A stretch of DNA of 64,000 nucleotides from Robiginitalea sediminis. GTDB taxonomy: Bacteria > Bacteroidota > Bacteroidia > Flavobacteriales > Flavobacteriaceae. The stretch lies in NCBI RefSeq assembly GCF_002198115.1, contig NZ_NGNR01000001.1, positions 1,291,332 to 1,355,331 on the forward strand. The letters are read 5' to 3'. Shown piece after piece: positions 7,440 through 60,500 of this stretch. The notes below the pieces were generated by a model. The model saw only the letters and a program-made list of their open reading frames with translations. It searched no databases and had not been told where the DNA came from. Position 1 is the first letter of the stretch. Each line of letters opens with the position of its first letter. The translations under genes and the position numbers were made by a program.

Positions 7440-8516
7440 ATGACGATTATGCCGGATATTCGATCCATACTGAACCAACGCATCCTGGTACTGGACGGTG
7501 CCATGGGGACCATGCTGCAGCGATATGCCTTTACCGAGGCCGACTTTCGCGGCGAGCGGTTCCGGGACTGGCCCTCTTCCCTGAAGGGAAACAACGACCT
7601 GCTCTCCCTGACCCAGCCCGGGGCTATCTCGGAAATCCACCGCAAATACCTGGAAGCGGGGGCAGACATTATAGAGACCAATACTTTTTCCTCCACCTCC
7701 GTGGGGATGGCGGATTACGGGATGGAGGACCTGGCCTACGAACTCAACAAGGCCTCCGCCGCCCTGGCCCGGGAAGAAGCAGACCGTATGACCCGGCTAA
7801 ACCCAAACAAGCCGCGATTTGTTGCGGGGAGCATTGGCCCCACAAACAAGACCGCGAGTATGTCCCCGGACGTCAATGACCCGGGGTACCGGGCCATCAC
7901 CTTTACGCAGCTCCGGGATGCCTACCGGGAGCAGGTCGAAGGGCTGCTGGACGGCGGGGCCGACCTGCTGCTCGTTGAGACGGTCTTTGACACCCTCAAT
8001 GCCAAGGCTGCCCTTTTCGCTATTGAAGAAGCCCTGGAAGCCCGGGGGGAGGATATCCCGGTCATGGTAAGCGGTACGATTACGGATGCTTCCGGCCGCA
8101 CGCTCTCCGGCCAGACCCCGGAAGCCTTCCTGATCTCTGTCTCCCATCTGCCGCTGTTGTCCGTAGGGCTTAACTGCGCCCTGGGGGCCAAGCAACTGGT
8201 GCCCTACCTGGAGGTGCTGGCCAAAAGGAACCCCGGTGCGGTTTCGGCCCACCCGAATGCCGGCCTTCCCAATGCCTTTGGGGAGTACGACCAGACCCCG
8301 GAGCAAATGGGCGGTCAGATCCGGGAATACCTGGAGAAGGGCCTGGTGAATATTATCGGTGGCTGTTGCGGCACAACCCCGGACCATATCAGGGTGCTGG
8401 CCGAACTGGTGAAGGAATACGCTCCCAGGAAGGTGGAAGTGGAATTGGATTCCAAATCCCACCCCGAATACGCAAGGGGCCAAAATCCAAAATCCAACAA
8501 CAGGACTAAAGGATGA
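7440..8516 (+). CDS. Methionine synthase, N-terminal half (homocysteine-binding module)
   Basis: A 358-residue stand-alone homocysteine S-methyltransferase barrel equal to the first module of cobalamin-dependent MetH. It shows [13 protein letters not shown] near the start and the zinc-ligand cysteines in GLNCALG and [10 protein letters not shown]. It cannot work alone; the folate, cobalamin and reactivation modules are encoded by the next gene, which overlaps by ATGA. The clean overlap and intact reading frames argue for a true two-subunit enzyme rather than a sequencing frameshift. ATG at 7440 is given; the ATG at 7449 is an equally good start. Expression should be under the SAM-I riboswitch. 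Confidence 0.9.
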
Positions 8517-53151: not shown

Positions 53152-54294
53152 ATGAAAAAAGTAGTTTTATCTGCACTGGCACTGGCTATGGGGTCTTTTA
53201 TGATGGCCCAGGACAATGACAGTAAGGTTACTCAGAACGGAGATGCGAACAAAGCCACGGTCAACCAGGCCGGGACCACCCACCGCAGTGTGGTACGCGT
53301 TTTCGGGGACGAAAACCAAAGCAGCGCATTCCAGCGCGGAAATTCCAACAACCAGGTTACCGAAATTGCCGGACTGGGCAGTTCCGATGGGAACAAAACC
53401 AGTGTGGAGCAGCGCGGTACGACCAATAATGCGACCTTGGATATTGCAGGGGATGGCAACACCGTAAGTGTAGACCAAAGGGGTAACTCCAACAACAATG
53501 GCCCCAACTCAGGCAGTGTCTGGTCTGGCGATCCGAATGCTGTGGAAATCACCGGTAACGACAACCGGGCAACCCTTAAGCAAAACGGACACCTCAATGA
53601 AGGTTTTGTGTTGACTCAGGGAGATGGCAACATTGCCAAAATTACCCAGATGGGAGACGAAAACCTGTCCTATGTTACCGCTACAGGCGATGCCACCGGA
53701 AACCGGGGAGAATCCTTCCAGGACGGTGCGTCAAACAAGTCGTTTATCAACCAGACCGCCACAGGTATTTTTGCGGATTCCCGGCCCGATGGCAATACGG
53801 CATTCGTTCGTCAGGTAGGAACCTCCAATGAAAGTACCGTAGAACAATCCCGGTATATGGCCTATGCCAATGTAGACCAGGGAGGAACCGGGCATATGAG
53901 CGAAGTAGTTCAGGAGTCCTGGGGAGACGACAGGGCTTACGTAGAACAACGGGGCCAGAACCAGGATAGCTATATCGAACAGGTATCCGGACTTGGTAAC
54001 CGCGCGGATGTAACGCAGCGTGGCGATGGCAATGAAAGCGACGTCATTCAGGGCGGCGAGTACGACAAAGCCGTGGTTTTCCAAAGCGGAAGCGGAAGCG
54101 TCAGTATGATAGACCAGGATACCAATGCCAGTAAGGCAAACGTAAACCAACAGGGCATGAACCACGACAGCATGATCCTGCAACGCGGGGCCGGTATGAA
54201 CCAGGCCAATGTGACCCAGACAGGCATGGGCCAGATCAGCACCATTAACCAAAACGGCATGTCTAACGTGGCAACCGTTATTCAAAGCAACTAA
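53152..54294 (+). CDS. Large curlin-repeat amyloid subunit 1 (CsgA-like)
   Basis: A 380-residue secreted protein: signal peptide (MKKVVLSALALAMGSFMMAQ) followed by many imperfect curlin repeats of the kind N-x-A/S-x-V-x-Q-x-G-x-x-N. Examples are KVTQNGDANKATVNQAG, TSVEQRGTTNNATLDIAG and DVTQRGDGNESDVIQGG. Classical CsgA has five repeats in about 150 residues; this protein is about 2.5 times as long. Cys is absent and Asn/Gln/Gly/Ser dominate. Each repeat should form one rung of a beta-solenoid amyloid fibre on the cell surface, exported by CsgG. The Gln and Asn at ladder positions are kept throughout most units; a few units are degenerate (for example around residue 120). Confidence 0.88.
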   Translation: MKKVVLSALALAMGSFMMAQDNDSKVTQNGDANKATVNQAGTTHRSVVRVFGDENQSSAFQRGNSNNQVTEIAGLGSSDGNKTSVEQRGTTNNATLDIAGDGNTVSVDQRGNSNNNGPNSGSVWSGDPNAVEITGNDNRATLKQNGHLNEGFVLTQGDGNIAKITQMGDENLSYVTATGDATGNRGESFQDGASNKSFINQTATGIFADSRPDGNTAFVRQVGTSNESTVEQSRYMAYANVDQGGTGHMSEVVQESWGDDRAYVEQRGQNQDSYIEQVSGLGNRADVTQRGDGNESDVIQGGEYDKAVVFQSGSGSVSMIDQDTNASKANVNQQGMNHDSMILQRGAGMNQANVTQTGMGQISTINQNGMSNVATVIQSN

Positions 54295-54427: not shown

Positions 54428-55765
54428 ATGAGAAAAGTTTTATTAAGTGTAATGGCACTTGCCATCGGGTCCTTTGGTATGGCCCAGAGCAACACCAGTG
54501 CCGTAACCCAGTCGGGTACGGGCAACGCTGCCAATGTGTCCCAGACAGGAGCCAGCAATGCCTCTACCATAACCAACACCAACGGGGTGGACAATACTGT
54601 AAAAGTGGCCCAGGTGGGCCAGACCAACGTTTCCACCTTCGAAACCACCGATGGTTCCAGCACCAACGTAGCAGACCGCATTTACCAGAATGGGGTTACC
54701 AATACCTCAGCCTCCATCATCACCGGAAACGGGAATGACCAGAGCGTGGACCAGCGCGGGGAAATGAACGTCAGCACCGTAACGGTAGTGGGCGACAATA
54801 ATACCGTTGAGGTGGATCAGCGGGGGAATAAAAACACCTCTGTTATTGACCAGATCAACGGTACATCAGGCAGTACTGCAGATGTTTACCAAGGCAATGG
54901 CTCCGACAAGCAGATGAGCACCATCAATCAGGATGGCGCTACGGATAGTGATGCTTTTGTTCGGCAGATCGGGCCGGACAAAAATACCAGCACGGTAAAA
55001 CAAACGGGTACTACCAATGCCTTGGCGGATGTGTACCAGAATGGTACGGGTAATACCAGTACGGTACAGCAAATTACCGGCCAGGCAGAAGGAAATACAG
55101 CCATGGTAGACCAGATCGGAACCAATAACAAGAGCTTTGTGAACCAGATTTTCGGGGCGCCCAACCTTGCGACGGTTAACCAGAATGGTGACAGCCATGA
55201 GAGCCAAATTCGCCAGGAATCCGCTCAGCGCAATGAGGTTCAGGTTTCGCAGTCCGGTGTGGGCCAGTGGAGCTGGGTGAAGCAACGCACCAGCCAGGAT
55301 AACCTTGCCAAGGTAAATCAGTCCGGTACTGCAAACCGCAGTAAAATCCAGCAGGGATTTGCACCCCCAACTGCATCTGTGGGTTCAGTAGCCGATGTGA
55401 AACAAACTGGTAATGCGCAGAACAGCTATGTGGAGCAAACCGGATTCGGGGATGTAGCCACAATTAGGCAATCCGGAGCGGTTGGCGGTAACGACAGCTT
55501 TGTGCAACAGGATACCGACGCCAACAGTATGGCCAAAGTAACCCAGAACGGGGAGGCCAACGAGAGCGACGTCCTCCAGAACGGTGCGGGCGATAACATG
55601 GTTACCGTGAACCAGAATGGTGCTGCCAACATGAGCCTGGTAGACCAGATGGCAACCGGTGCCGGCCAGAACGCCGCCACTGTGATGCAGAATGGCTCCG
55701 GCCACATGAGTACAGTTAGCCAGATGGGCGCCGCAAACGTGACCAATGTCATGCAAAACAACTAG
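54428..55765 (+). CDS. Large curlin-repeat amyloid subunit 2 (CsgA-like)
   Basis: A 445-residue paralogue of the previous protein, with a near-identical signal peptide (MRKVLLSVMALAIGSFGMAQ) and even more curlin units. Examples are AVTQSGTGNAANVSQTG, TVEVDQRGNKNTSVIDQ, AKVTQNGEANESDVLQNG. It ends in V-M-Q-N-N, parallel to V-I-Q-S-N in subunit 1. No Cys is present. The two repeat arrays differ enough in sequence to be old duplicates rather than a recent copy. It should co-polymerise with subunit 1 or form a distinct fibre. Confidence 0.88.
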   Translation: MRKVLLSVMALAIGSFGMAQSNTSAVTQSGTGNAANVSQTGASNASTITNTNGVDNTVKVAQVGQTNVSTFETTDGSSTNVADRIYQNGVTNTSASIITGNGNDQSVDQRGEMNVSTVTVVGDNNTVEVDQRGNKNTSVIDQINGTSGSTADVYQGNGSDKQMSTINQDGATDSDAFVRQIGPDKNTSTVKQTGTTNALADVYQNGTGNTSTVQQITGQAEGNTAMVDQIGTNNKSFVNQIFGAPNLATVNQNGDSHESQIRQESAQRNEVQVSQSGVGQWSWVKQRTSQDNLAKVNQSGTANRSKIQQGFAPPTASVGSVADVKQTGNAQNSYVEQTGFGDVATIRQSGAVGGNDSFVQQDTDANSMAKVTQNGEANESDVLQNGAGDNMVTVNQNGAANMSLVDQMATGAGQNAATVMQNGSGHMSTVSQMGAANVTNVMQNN

Positions 55766-55857: not shown

Positions 55858-56373
55858 ATGAGACCCATTACTTTCATATTATCCTTTCTGATGTCTTGTG
55901 CCACAGCCTTTCAGGTCAGCGCCCAGGGTATAATCAATACCGAAATCACGGGGGAGACCGAAGCGCAACAGTTTAGTTTTCTCACCCTGCAATCCGACCA
56001 GGCGCCAGCGCCTTCCGACCTGCTAATTGCCAACAACGGCGTGTTTATCAACCAGGTGGGCAACGATAATGCTGCCCTTGTGGCCATACGGTCCAAGGTA
56101 AGTGACGTAAACCTGCTCCAGGCGGGCGACCTGAACAAGATGCGCCTGAATCTGCAGGCCGATTTTGTGGACTACCAGGCCCTCCAGCTTGGGACGAACA
56201 ACTTATTGCTCGAATACCCCTCCCTTGGGAACAAAACCCTGCTGCAGCGGGTGGTAGAGCAGTACGGGGATAACCAGAGCCTCATTATCCACGGCCAGAA
56301 CAGCATTATTGACAAAATGAGGATCCGCATGGAGGCCGGGTCCCAAAGCCTGATTATCAGGAATACCCAGTAA
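55858..56373 (+). CDS. Short curlin-like protein, possible CsgB nucleator
   Basis: A 171-residue secreted protein (signal peptide ending QVSAQ). Four or five degenerate curlin units are visible: FINQVGNDNAALVAI, LLQAGDLNKMRLNL, ALQLGTNNLLLEYP, VVEQYGDNQSLIIHGQ. The size and repeat number equal E. coli CsgB, which nucleates CsgA on the surface. The units have more hydrophobic and charged residues than the large subunits, and a non-repetitive N-terminal part (residues 25-55). Nucleator function is inferred from size and position. The next ATG follows the stop by two bases. Confidence 0.75.
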   Translation: MRPITFILSFLMSCATAFQVSAQGIINTEITGETEAQQFSFLTLQSDQAPAPSDLLIANNGVFINQVGNDNAALVAIRSKVSDVNLLQAGDLNKMRLNLQADFVDYQALQLGTNNLLLEYPSLGNKTLLQRVVEQYGDNQSLIIHGQNSIIDKMRIRMEAGSQSLIIRNTQ

Positions 56374-56375
56374 CG

Positions 56376-57164
56376 ATGGTCTTGCCCCGGATGACCACAC
56401 CAAAGGCGATATGCCTGTTCCTTATCCTTGGAATCCACGGCCAGCTCCTGCTTGCCCAGAATTTCAACCGGGAAGTGGAAGCCTTTATTGATGTGGATTC
56501 CCGGGGGGTCCGCACTTCTATCGTCTTCTCGGCCTACAACAAAACCCCCTTAAAGAAAAGCCTGAGGTACCGTGCCCTGATCGTGAAGAGCGACCGGGAA
56601 GGGACCTCCCAACAATACGAGGACGAGCAGTACTTCATTGCCGAGGCCGGTGAACGGAAAATCATCAGCCAGGCCAATATCGAAATCTCCGAAGGGGAGC
56701 GAACCATTGTCTTTGTCCTGATTTATGAAGAGGACCAGGTCATTGGGAAGGACCGCATTGTGATTAACGGTTTTGAGGGTGAGGACGACCTGCAGCCCAG
56801 TATTGTGGAAGAGCAGCGCCTCGTGCCTCAACAAGAGGCCGCTCCTTCGGCAGATGTGGAGCTACTTACAGGGCTGGTCTTCGAAAACACCAAAACCAAG
56901 CCGGGCCGGGATTTCTACCAGAAATTTTATCTGGCCTATACCACCAACAATATCAACGGAAACAAGATGGTCAAGGTAGACGAGGTCCTGGCCATTGGGG
57001 GCAATACCCAAATCCGCATTTATGCGGGGGACGACCTGGTGGTCCAGTTCTTTGTGAACCCCAGAAGCTCCTACATGGATCAGATGGTGGAGTATTCCAT
57101 CCGCCGGGTGAACCAGTATTTCCAGCAGAATAAGGCCATCCGCCAAAACACCATATCCTATTAA
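56376..57164 (+). CDS. csgE: CsgE secretion factor with N-terminal CsgC/CsgH-like domain
   Basis: A 262-residue periplasmic protein with two domains. After a signal peptide (ending LLLAQ), residues about 32-131 form a beta-sandwich-like unit: SLRYRALIVKSDREGTSQQY, then the AEAGER turn and NIEISEGERTIVFVLIYEED. It resembles CsgC/CsgH, the amyloid inhibitors of proteobacterial curli. A linker (132-158) leads to CsgE (160-262): GLVFENTKTKPGRDFYQKFY, then IRIYAGDDLVVQFFVNP. CsgE is about 130 residues in E. coli and targets subunits to CsgG. ATG at 56376 or 56391 could start it. csgF follows one base after the stop. Confidence 0.85.
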   Translation: MVLPRMTTPKAICLFLILGIHGQLLLAQNFNREVEAFIDVDSRGVRTSIVFSAYNKTPLKKSLRYRALIVKSDREGTSQQYEDEQYFIAEAGERKIISQANIEISEGERTIVFVLIYEEDQVIGKDRIVINGFEGEDDLQPSIVEEQRLVPQQEAAPSADVELLTGLVFENTKTKPGRDFYQKFYLAYTTNNINGNKMVKVDEVLAIGGNTQIRIYAGDDLVVQFFVNPRSSYMDQMVEYSIRRVNQYFQQNKAIRQNTISY

Positions 57165-57165
57165 G

Positions 57166-57567
57166 ATGAAACGATTCCTTTTCACCTGCCTTCTCCTGGT
57201 ATTTTCAGGATACACCTACAGCCAACAGCTGGTCTATACCCCCAAGAACCCGAATTTCGGGGGGAACACCTTTAACTACCAGTGGCTGCTGAGCTCTGCC
57301 AATGCGCAGAATTCCTTTACCGACAATACGGACCGATTCGGGTCCGACCGGTCGGAGCTGGAGGATTTTCAGGAAAGCCTCAACCGCCAGCTGCTGGGCC
57401 AGCTCACCCGTTCGGTTTTCGATTCCGAATTGGGCGACGGCTTGCAGCCCGGCACCTTCAATATAGGGGATCTGCTCCTGGAAATTTTCGAATCCGGTGA
57501 AGGCCTGGTCATCAACATCCTCGATACCACCACCGGGGAGCAAACCCAGATTATTGTCCCGAACTAA
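57166..57567 (+). CDS. csgF: Curli assembly factor CsgF
   Basis: A 133-residue secreted protein (signal peptide ending TYSQ) whose mature N-terminus, QLVYTPKNPNFGGNTFNYQWLLSSANAQN, is the CsgF segment that plugs the CsgG pore in E. coli (FxYxPxNPxFGGN). The C-terminal part (INILDTTTGEQTQIIVPN) is also typical. CsgF couples nucleator to the secretion pore on the outer surface. It lies one base from csgE and ten bases from csgG. Confidence 0.95.
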   Translation: MKRFLFTCLLLVFSGYTYSQQLVYTPKNPNFGGNTFNYQWLLSSANAQNSFTDNTDRFGSDRSELEDFQESLNRQLLGQLTRSVFDSELGDGLQPGTFNIGDLLLEIFESGEGLVINILDTTTGEQTQIIVPN

Positions 57568-57577
57568 CCCCGTATCT

Positions 57578-58966
57578 ATGAAGCGTTACAGAACGTTCGC
57601 AGCCCTGGGAGCCCTCCTCGCATTATCGGCCTGCGGCACCTATTTTAACCAGCCCGTTGCACCCACTACCTCCAGGACAGGGGAAACCACTTCGGAATCG
57701 GATGCGCTTAGGAGCTTACCCCTCCCGGCAGAGCCAATCGTGGTGGGGGTGTACAATTTCAAGGATCAGACCGGGCAGTACAAGGCGGTCGAAAACGCCA
57801 GTACCTTCAGCACGGCGGTTCCCCAGGGGGCAACTACCATGCTGATTAAGGCCCTGGAGGATTCCAAATGGTTTACCCCCATAGAGCGGGAGAACCTCTC
57901 CAACCTCCTCAATGAACGCAACATCATCCGTTCCACCCGCCAGGAGTATACGGGCGACCAGAGTGGTCAGCCCAACCTGCCCCCCTTGCTCTATGCCGGG
58001 ATCCTGCTCGAGGGGGGGATTATTTCCTATGACACCAATATCATCACTGGCGGCTATGGCGCCCGGTATTTCGGGGTAGGGGGCTCTGCCCAATACCGGC
58101 AGGACCGGATCACCATCTATCTCAGGGCCGTATCCACCTCCAATGGAAAAATCCTGAAAACCGTTTACGTGTCCAAGACCATCCTGTCCCAGGCCCTGGA
58201 TGCCAGCCTTTTCCGTTATGTAAAGTTCCAGCGCCTGCTGGAAGTGGAAACGGGGATTACCAAGAACGAACCCATACAACTGGCTATTCAGAATGCGATA
58301 GAGAATGCCGTCGAATCCCTGATCATTGAGGGGATACAGGATAACCTCTGGAGTACCGCTGAGGGGCTAGAGGTAAACGATTCCCTGGTGTTGGCCTACA
58401 ACCTAAGGAAGCAGGAAGAAGAGTCGTCCCTCCTGTACAACCGGTCGCAAGCCGGTGAATTGCGCAAGTCCGGGCTTAGTGTGTACGGGAATGCCCCCGT
58501 GTTCAACGGGGACTTCACCAAGAAATCCTTAGGGGTAGGCGGCGGCCTTCGATACAGTTTGTACCTGACCCCACACCTGGACCTCGGACTGCGCGGGGAC
58601 TATTTCTATTTCACCGGCGGGCAGAACTTTTATAAGGAATATATGTCCGCGAACCTGAACCTGGGCTACACCATCCTCCCGCGGGACCGGTTTACCCCCT
58701 ATGTATATGGCGGCGGCGGGCGTATTTTCGATTTGCGATCGCCCAAGCCGGGCCTTACCGAGGACCCTTCAGGTTTTAACTTCCAGTACGGACTGGCCCT
58801 GAAATACCGGGTTAACCCCGGCCTGTCCATTTTTATTAGTGCAGAGAACAACCATACGACCACCGATGCCCTGGACGATGTCGTCAACGGGGTGCGTGAC
58901 GATTTTTACAGCAACTTCAGCCTGGGGCTGGAGTGGCGATTTGGAAAAAACATATCAATACGATAA
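57578..58966 (+). CDS. csgG: Curli secretion pore CsgG with C-terminal barrel-like extension
   Basis: A 462-residue lipoprotein (lipobox LSAC, Cys19). Residues about 50-265 are the CsgG channel subunit: EPIVVGVYNFKDQTGQYK, AVPQGATTMLIKALEDSKWFTPIERENL, NERNIIRS, ILLEGGIISYDTNI, YLRAVSTSNGKIL. CsgG forms a nonameric outer-membrane pore with two strand pairs per subunit. E. coli CsgG is 277 residues. Residues about 298-462 are extra: alternating amphipathic strands (GVGGGLRYSLYLTPHLDLGLRGDYFYF ... FSLGLEWRFGKN) like a small OmpA/OmpW-type barrel. The ATG at 57578 starts the signal peptide. Confidence 0.92.
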   Translation: MKRYRTFAALGALLALSACGTYFNQPVAPTTSRTGETTSESDALRSLPLPAEPIVVGVYNFKDQTGQYKAVENASTFSTAVPQGATTMLIKALEDSKWFTPIERENLSNLLNERNIIRSTRQEYTGDQSGQPNLPPLLYAGILLEGGIISYDTNIITGGYGARYFGVGGSAQYRQDRITIYLRAVSTSNGKILKTVYVSKTILSQALDASLFRYVKFQRLLEVETGITKNEPIQLAIQNAIENAVESLIIEGIQDNLWSTAEGLEVNDSLVLAYNLRKQEEESSLLYNRSQAGELRKSGLSVYGNAPVFNGDFTKKSLGVGGGLRYSLYLTPHLDLGLRGDYFYFTGGQNFYKEYMSANLNLGYTILPRDRFTPYVYGGGGRIFDLRSPKPGLTEDPSGFNFQYGLALKYRVNPGLSIFISAENNHTTTDALDDVVNGVRDDFYSNFSLGLEWRFGKNISIR

Positions 58967-58976
58967 CTGATAACCC

Positions 58977-60500
58977 ATGACCCAACGCTATTTCATCCGT
59001 TTACTGGCGCTTTCAGCCTTGTTATTTGTAGGTTCATGCGAGGAGGAGACCCTGGACGACCAGGCCTTCGGCACCCTGGAGGGAAAAGTGGTAACCCAGG
59101 GGGATAACACCCCGGTGGAGAACGTCAAGATTACCACGAGCCCCTCTTCAAACACCGTCTTCACAGACCGGGATGGGAATTTCAGGATTCCCGATATCCT
59201 GGTGGGGGACTATTCTGTGCAGGCCGAACAGGAGGACTTCCAGGCCGCTTTCGAGCCCGCCTCAATCCTGGCGGGTAAAACTACGAATGTGGTTTTTGAG
59301 CTGGACAGCCTTCAGGCAGCTAACCTGAGGCCACGGGTACCCCTGTTGCTGGCCCCGGAGGACAAGCAGACCGATGTGCTGAGCCCCGTGGAGTTCGTCT
59401 GGTCGTCCGCTGCCAATGACCAGGACCCCATAACCTACTCTCTGGAGCTGCGAAATGGAAATACGGGAGCTACCCAGACATTTGAAGCCCTTGCCGATAC
59501 GGTCCTGGTCGTGGAGGACCTGGCTATTGGCGCCAATTATTTCTGGCAGGTAACCGCTACGGACGATATTACCGAGCCGGTCCAGAGTAAAATCGGTAGT
59601 TTTCAGCTGAGGGGTGTTTCACAGAACCGCTACCTTTTTGTAAGGAACCTGGAAGGCAACAATGTTATTTTTTCCGGTGGCGAACCGGGGGGAACTTCGG
59701 CAGAAGTCAACCAGAACGAGATCCAGCTGACCGCTTCGGGCATCAATGCCTACAGGCCAAAGGCCAACCGCCTGGTGGGTAAAATTGCCTATATCCGGAC
59801 CGTAGGGGGAGAAGCGCATATCTTCACCATGAACCTGGACGGTACCGACCAGAAACAACTTACTGCCGAGGTGCCCGTGGCCGCATTCCGCCAGGATGAG
59901 GTGGAATTCGCCTGGTACCCGAATGGCAGTGCCCTCTATTACCCGAATTTCAACAAAGTGTACAGCATCAACCTGGATGGTTCCGGGGTGCAGGTGGTCT
60001 ATGAGGCTGCTGTCAATGAATTTATTACGGAAATTGCCGTGAGCCCGGGAGGAGGGGAACTTGCCCTGAAACTCAACGATGCACAAGGCTACAATGCCGA
60101 AGTACGGACCGTCAATATCGCCAGTGGCCAGGTAACCCGGACGGTCATTTCCGGGGTGAGTGGTGCCCTGGGTGGCATTGATTATGCCCCGGACGGAAAC
60201 CGGATCCTGTACACCCGGGACGTATCGGGCACCCAGAACAACCAGTACCGCCAACTCGACGCGCGCATTTTTGAATACAACCTGGTAAGCGGTACAGCTG
60301 TGGAGATCGATACCCGGAAACCTGCGGGCTTTAATACCCTCGATGCCAAATACGCGCCCAATGGCGGGTCTGTTATCTATACGTATACTTCCAACGATGG
60401 GATTTCCGAAAGGAGTATCCGAAGGAAGCAGCTGGATACCGAAGAATTCTTCGAAAGCGAAGTGGTATTCACCAATGCCTCTATGCCGGATTGGGAATAA
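58977..60500 (+). CDS. Carboxypeptidase-regulatory-like / beta-propeller lipoprotein in the curli operon
   Basis: A 507-residue lipoprotein: lipobox VGSC (Cys21) followed by an acidic run CEEETLDD resembling the lipoprotein export signal for surface display in Bacteroidota. Domains: a CarboxypepD_reg-like fold (about 33-110, KVVTQGDNTPVENVKITT ... GNFRIPDILVGDYSVQAE), an Ig/FnIII-like segment (115-205), and a WD40/TolB-like propeller region (about 210-505) with blades such as IAVSPGGGELALKLND and DYAPDGNRILYTRD. It begins ten bases after csgG, so it is probably part of the operon, perhaps a fibre-binding surface protein. Function inferred from context. Confidence 0.8.
   Translation: MTQRYFIRLLALSALLFVGSCEEETLDDQAFGTLEGKVVTQGDNTPVENVKITTSPSSNTVFTDRDGNFRIPDILVGDYSVQAEQEDFQAAFEPASILAGKTTNVVFELDSLQAANLRPRVPLLLAPEDKQTDVLSPVEFVWSSAANDQDPITYSLELRNGNTGATQTFEALADTVLVVEDLAIGANYFWQVTATDDITEPVQSKIGSFQLRGVSQNRYLFVRNLEGNNVIFSGGEPGGTSAEVNQNEIQLTASGINAYRPKANRLVGKIAYIRTVGGEAHIFTMNLDGTDQKQLTAEVPVAAFRQDEVEFAWYPNGSALYYPNFNKVYSINLDGSGVQVVYEAAVNEFITEIAVSPGGGELALKLNDAQGYNAEVRTVNIASGQVTRTVISGVSGALGGIDYAPDGNRILYTRDVSGTQNNQYRQLDARIFEYNLVSGTAVEIDTRKPAGFNTLDAKYAPNGGSVIYTYTSNDGISERSIRRKQLDTEEFFESEVVFTNASMPDWE

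Follow-up and report, generated by a model that had tools for sequence, protein, structure and literature searches.

The csgE Locus and the Domain Organization of its Product

The stretch of DNA analyzed here (referred to as the window; 64,000 nucleotides of the Robiginitalea sediminis contig NZ_NGNR01000001.1, positions 1,291,332 to 1,355,331, RefSeq assembly GCF_002198115.1) contains a curli locus in which the genes for two long curlin subunits are followed by csgE, csgF and csgG. The two curlins comprise 380 amino acids with eight curlin-repeat stretches (53152..54294, +) and 445 amino acids with 13 curlin-repeat stretches (54428..55765, +), as identified with the Pfam model PF07012. Directly upstream of csgE lies a gene for a third, 171-residue curlin-like protein with a leader (55858..56373, +), whose single weak PF07012 match (16.5 bits) falls below the cut-off of 20.7; genes of like size and letters are found, as judged by eye, at the same place in L047 and L048 (two loci of a large genus discussed below) and in L211 and L212 (the loci of two Maribacter species), and one might guess that this protein is a CsgB-like nucleator. 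Downstream of csgE, csgF (57166..57567, +; PF10614, E 1.7e-36) and csgG (57578..58966, +; PF03783, E 2.2e-66) are present, the start of the latter being taken at the ATG of 57578 rather than at the upstream GTG of the open reading frame list. The CsgG protein carries an extra C-terminal outer-membrane beta-barrel domain (PF13505, E 5e-10, residues 303-455), and CsgG is of like length (453 amino acids) in L047 and L048. A lipoprotein-like gene (58977-60500) with a CarboxypepD_reg match and a PD40 match just below its cut-off follows csgG, and a similar gene, again judged by eye, follows csgG in L047 and L048.

The csgE gene itself (56376..57164, +) encodes a protein of 262 residues. Its C-terminal part (residues 162-262; 56859..57161, +) is a CsgE domain, with the Pfam model PF10627 matching residues 164-255 (E 7.9e-10, 39.4 bits against a cut-off of 25), so that more than 100 ordered residues precede it. 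A structure predicted with AlphaFold2 from 55 sequences (mean pLDDT 86) shows a helix at residues 8-26, seven strands at residues 34-43, 46-55, 61-72, 78-89, 94-103, 109-118 and 121-130, a low-confidence linker (pLDDT below 50 at residues 142-161) and then the CsgE domain. The helix and its hydrophobic residues point to a probable Sec leader (residues 1-27; 56376..56456, +), the cleavage site of which was judged by eye. The ordered N-terminal domain comprises residues 29-131 (56460..56768, +), and the disordered linker residues 132-161 (56769..56858, +). The pTM of the whole model is only 0.51, and the placement of the two domains relative to each other is hence not predicted.

Relationship of the N-Terminal Domain to CsgC and CsgH

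The original prediction, which held that this CsgE protein carries an additional N-terminal domain related to the amyloid inhibitors CsgC and CsgH, is confirmed with respect to the observation and supported with respect to its interpretation. When taken alone, the window domain matches no Pfam or NCBIfam family at E-values up to 1, nor any Pfam family at E-values up to 10, and a search of the PDB with the single protein sequence gave nothing at E-values up to 10. As a family, however, its affiliation is clear. A profile built from 15 N-terminal domains (that of the window and those of 14 Flavobacteriales relatives) finds CsgC first among 177,635 distinct PDB sequences (E 3.8e-6); the next matches after the two CsgC sequences are HIV envelope proteins with E-values of 0.05 and above, which we regard as chance matches. 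At E-values up to 10, 11 of the 15 domains match the Pfam Tafi-CsgC family (PF10610) and 3 of 15 match CsgH (PF21112), with best E-values of 1.4e-5 and 0.02, respectively. The resemblance exceeds chance: against a model of the 14 relatives built without it, the window domain scores 61.1 bits while the best of 200 shuffled sequences scores 9.1, and against a model of six free-standing CsgH-like genes it scores 23.0 versus 4.9 bits. Of the two sequence motifs put forward in the original prediction, the first is not literally present (the sequence reads RALIVKSDREGTSQ), while the second (IEISEGERTIVFVLIYEED) fits.

The predicted fold points in the same direction. A Foldseek comparison with 350,542 PDB chains ranks CsgH from R. 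palustris (2n59; E 2.7e-6) first and CsgC from E. coli (2xsk; TM 0.81 by CsgC length) eighth. It should be noted that Ig-like sandwiches are common, that many unrelated ones are listed between and below CsgH and CsgC, among them GH2 enzymes and transglutaminases with E-values close to those of CsgH and CsgC, and that the identity to CsgC and CsgH is just 12-13%. One could therefore argue that the domain is a generic Ig-like sandwich resembling CsgC/CsgH by convergence only. We consider this very unlikely and already largely refuted, since sequence profiles used without any structural information find CsgC or CsgH first, the profile-profile probability is 98.9 to free-standing genes whose own profile finds CsgH at an E-value of 2e-11 (see below), and the setting is that of curli loci.

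Neither csgC nor csgH was found as a separate gene. None is present in the window locus, and at E-values up to 10 the domain profile finds only this gene in the 3.3 Mb assembly. The Pfam models for CsgC and CsgH detect none either, although PF21112 gave no hit in any control genome, and its silence taken alone hence proves little.

Distribution of the Fused and Free-Standing Forms

We inspected 47 csgE loci from 45 genomes, 42 of which were found with the CsgE family over the phylum and five with the window protein in the order. Among these, 17 have the domain fused in frame, two have it in a neighboring frame, five have a separate gene 3-5 kb from an unfused csgE (E 4e-10 or better), one has a weak separate match (E 2e-3), and 22 have none that the model can see, including one locus of the own order. 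None of the 47 has both forms at a meaningful score, as the separate match in one fused locus has an E-value of 0.5. The six separate genes, all within 8 kb of an unfused csgE, align with the fused domain (HH probability 98.9, E 3.2e-17), their own profile finds CsgH (E 2e-11) and CsgC (E 6e-6), and one of the six exceeds the Pfam cut-off for CsgH (30.9 versus 27 bits). In a scan of named genome contigs, all 80 loci kept of 385 confirmed ones are fused, but these were the best when ranked on the whole window protein, a procedure that favors the fused form. Three Olleya loci and one Lutibacter MAG of this set carry two tandem copies of the domain before CsgE (395-398 amino acids), while Maribacter antarcticus and M. 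litoralis possess, besides the fusion, a separate copy with a leader directly upstream (2594-2989 in L211 and 2591-2998 in L212). The M. antarcticus copy is also predicted to adopt the CsgC/CsgH fold (mean pLDDT 91.6; CsgH at rank 1 and CsgC at rank 2). Hence, the domain is a movable unit of curli systems that is used free or fused. Relatives were also sought in viral contigs, but none of 29 pattern matches was confirmed.

The long form of CsgE is the usual one in the Flavobacteriaceae loci read. A survey of the family found csgE in 86 of 397 genomes; 28 newly retrieved loci of these were read and 28 are fused, one of them cut by a contig end, and the short CsgE noted in genome G1116 during the survey reflects a contig end. 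The premise of the original prediction that CsgE should be about 130 residues long therefore does not hold in this lineage; this appears to be the proteobacterial length (the NCBIfam CsgE model has 129 positions), whereas about 240-270 amino acids is usual in the fused loci read here. It also follows that the fusion is not a local replacement event. Nevertheless, in the parts we consulted, no such fusion is mentioned in the 2012 survey of curli systems (PMC3521004), the 2016 CsgH paper (PMC4838910), a 2016 review (PMC5135000), in which the words "fusion" and "fused" do not occur, or a 2025 review (PMC12822426).

A Conserved A10-G Run at a Frame Change in csgE Genes of Relatives

The main new result lies not in the window gene but in its relatives. 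In one large genus of the Flavobacteriaceae (from its size very likely Flavobacterium), 93 of 398 genomes have csgE. With one further genome added, 94 loci were read in all frames: 52 are fused, 41 have CsgE in the -1 frame relative to the N-terminal domain, and one has it in the +1 frame; two more genomes of this genus, both fused, are not among the 94. All 41 genes with a -1 change switch frame at exactly ten A followed by G, in the phase xAA AAA AAA AAG, which contains the dnaX heptamer A_AAA_AAG; the A-run lies, for instance, at 7864-7873 in L047 and at 8064-8073 (-) in L048. In the 94 loci, runs of ten or more A occur 48 times at this junction and only twice elsewhere in 341 kb. The zero frame stops within four codons of the run in 40 of 41 genes, while the matching frame does so in 9 of the 44 fused genes without a run. 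Three in-frame genes with A10-G stop one codon after a -1 slip, but 24 of 44 fused controls stop within two codons too, and we therefore place no weight on this apparent mirror arrangement. The linker of the window gene contains no A-run, and what follows does not apply to it. Outside of this genus we saw no such split, as 28 of 28 loci of the family survey and 80 of 80 named loci are in frame.

One might suspect that the frame-split genes are two ordinary, translationally coupled genes, pseudogenes or assembly errors. Indeed, the stop codon of the first frame lies within the second open frame (overlap 13-64 bases), and 10 of the 41 genes have some ATG, GTG or TTG before the CsgE domain. However, 31 of 41 have no such start codon there, and in the other 10 the start lies within about eight codons of the domain, leaving no room for the leader that a periplasmic CsgE needs; exported CsgE should thus need the start of the N-terminal domain. 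Both halves look conserved as protein: in 24 pairs both show an excess of third-position and synonymous change, with differing codons being synonymous/non-synonymous 605/450 in the N-terminal part and 457/235 in the CsgE part, although this is not a formal dN/dS analysis. Furthermore, an error at one site in 41 separate genomes is hard to credit. We therefore regard these explanations as very improbable.

Alternatively, the run may be a phase-variation tract in which DNA slippage switches the fusion on and off between cells. It is a homopolymer, genes for surface fibers are typical phase-variation genes (PMC3711429), one frame-split gene has A12, and one in-frame gene has A11 and five have A10 at the junction. 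The A12 gene is the one in the +1 frame (genome G894), and its near relative G737 has A10. However, a switching tract should show a spread of lengths, with many genes in frame, whereas of 50 junctions with nine or more A, 46 have exactly ten (41 split, 5 in frame), two have nine, one has eleven and one has twelve, and all 41 genes split at A10 share one phase and a following G. On a tree of the 94 loci plus the window, 41 of the 42 frame-split genes fall in one clade of 46 (support 100/99) together with five in-frame members; these counts are not independent, since the genes are related. The remaining frame-split gene (G735), with the same A10-G, lies among fused genes, which suggests a second origin. 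Phase variation remains possible, but it fits the single length poorly and seems unlikely to us.

The arrangement fits programmed frameshifting or transcriptional slippage, and either mechanism would give both products. A run of ten A is long enough for slippage by RNA polymerase (runs of nine are named in PMC1088944), while the G following the run in 41 of 41 genes fits the ribosomal heptamer. No convincing stimulator was found. Shuffles that keep only base composition initially suggested a downstream hairpin (mean z -1.41, 20 of 41 below -1.5, against 0.00 and 3 of 41 in one control segment), but with dinucleotide shuffles over 23 positions the same place, though lowest (-1.04, 15 of 41 below -1.5), was nearly matched elsewhere (-0.90 at +80, 14 of 41), so that a selected hairpin was not upheld; Shine-Dalgarno-like 4-mers are present upstream in 12 of 41 genes.

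We suggest that in many species of this genus csgE is probably a programmed recoding gene. In this scenario, the zero frame makes a secreted, free CsgC/H-like amyloid inhibitor of about 134 residues, and a -1 slip at A_AAA_AAG by the ribosome or RNA polymerase makes the inhibitor-CsgE fusion that caps the export pore; the slip rate would then set the ratio of free inhibitor to gate chaperone. The site is direct sequence evidence, but the expression step is inferred. We found no report of recoding in csgE, or of the fusion, in the titles, abstracts and text passages of the openly licensed papers examined without their supplements; a survey of frame changes (PMC3711429, main text) and a recoding review (PMC5009743, first 300,000 of 475,107 characters) contain neither "curli" nor "csg". 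It may also be inferred that gene callers see a short CsgE and a nameless small protein in these genomes.

Proposed Role of the Two-Domain CsgE Protein

We consider it likely that the window CsgE is a two-part periplasmic chaperone. Its C-terminal domain is ordinary CsgE, which by analogy with E. coli, where CsgE forms a 9:9 cap (PMC5135000), caps the CsgG export pore, and its N-terminal domain is a predicted CsgC/CsgH-type sandwich on a flexible linker of about 30 residues. Up to nine inhibitor-like domains might hang on tethers around the mouth of the pore, touch the large curlins transiently, keep them unfolded and raise the chance of hand-over to CsgE and CsgG. Amyloid inhibition, the ring at the pore and the benefit for large curlins are all inferences. 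A 2012 survey reported that Bacteroidetes lack csgC (PMC3521004), and a CsgC/H domain joined to the pore-cap chaperone could fill that gap for these bacteria.

Several properties of the domain caution against a plain reading. It lacks the cysteines by which Taylor et al. define CsgC-like and CsgH-like proteins (PMC4838910), and its pI of 5.05 is less than one unit above that of the curlins (4.37-4.67), whereas CsgC and CsgH are reported to be more than two units above (PMC4838910); the basic part of the protein is the CsgE domain, with a pI of 9.23. The free products of the frame-split relatives have a median pI of 5.54, with 8 of 41 over 7. However, CsgC of Salmonella (AgfC) has a pI only 0.5 above that of its curlin and is still a CsgC, though a weaker inhibitor of E. 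coli CsgA (PMC4838910), and the modest pI is hence not decisive.

The main rival view is that the domain descends from CsgC/CsgH but now serves to place CsgE in the periplasm, to hold CsgG or to bind another partner, with no inhibitor activity of its own. In other Bacteroidota-group families, LysM domains sit at the same end of CsgE (over the Pfam cut-off in 7 of 10 csgE proteins of one set, with an eighth just below and the other two having none, and in 2 of 5 csgE proteins from outside the order), which suggests placement of CsgE on peptidoglycan. In addition, of 15 invariant columns in a 55-row alignment, only two lie in the N-terminal domain and 13 in CsgE, and 22 of the 47 loci show neither a fused nor a nearby separate CsgC/H-like match. 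On the other hand, free-standing copies exist in curli loci, and the frame-split genes have a prompt stop that would release the domain alone; both would be odd for a mere placement tag. We regard a pure placement role as possible but less likely.

Comparison with Known Systems

CsgE (PF10627) is represented in the window protein by its C-terminal 100 residues and is followed by csgF and csgG, but proteobacterial CsgE, at about 130 residues, appears to have no such N-terminal domain. CsgC (PF10610; E. coli, PDB 2xsk and 2y2t) shares with the N-terminal domain the seven-strand sandwich, as predicted here, and the curli locus, but it is encoded by a separate gene and has a CxC motif, whereas the window domain is fused to CsgE, has no cysteine and does not reach the Pfam cut-off. 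CsgH (PF21112; R. palustris, PDB 2n59) is the top structural match and is reached by sequence from the free-standing relatives of the domain, and Taylor et al. (PMC4838910) note CsgH-like subfamilies in Bacteroidetes; the window domain, however, lacks the distant cysteine pair, is not clearly basic and is fused to CsgE.

For the frame-split relatives, although not for the window gene, the closest counterparts are -1 frameshifting in dnaX and the tail chaperones gpG/gpGT of phage lambda (PMC5009743). While slippage by RNA polymerase is equally possible and no convincing downstream hairpin or upstream Shine-Dalgarno stimulator was seen with the shuffle and 4-mer analyses described above, A_AAA_AAG is the E. 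coli dnaX shift site, and gpG/gpGT is a chaperone made short and as a frameshifted fusion, as proposed here for these relatives.
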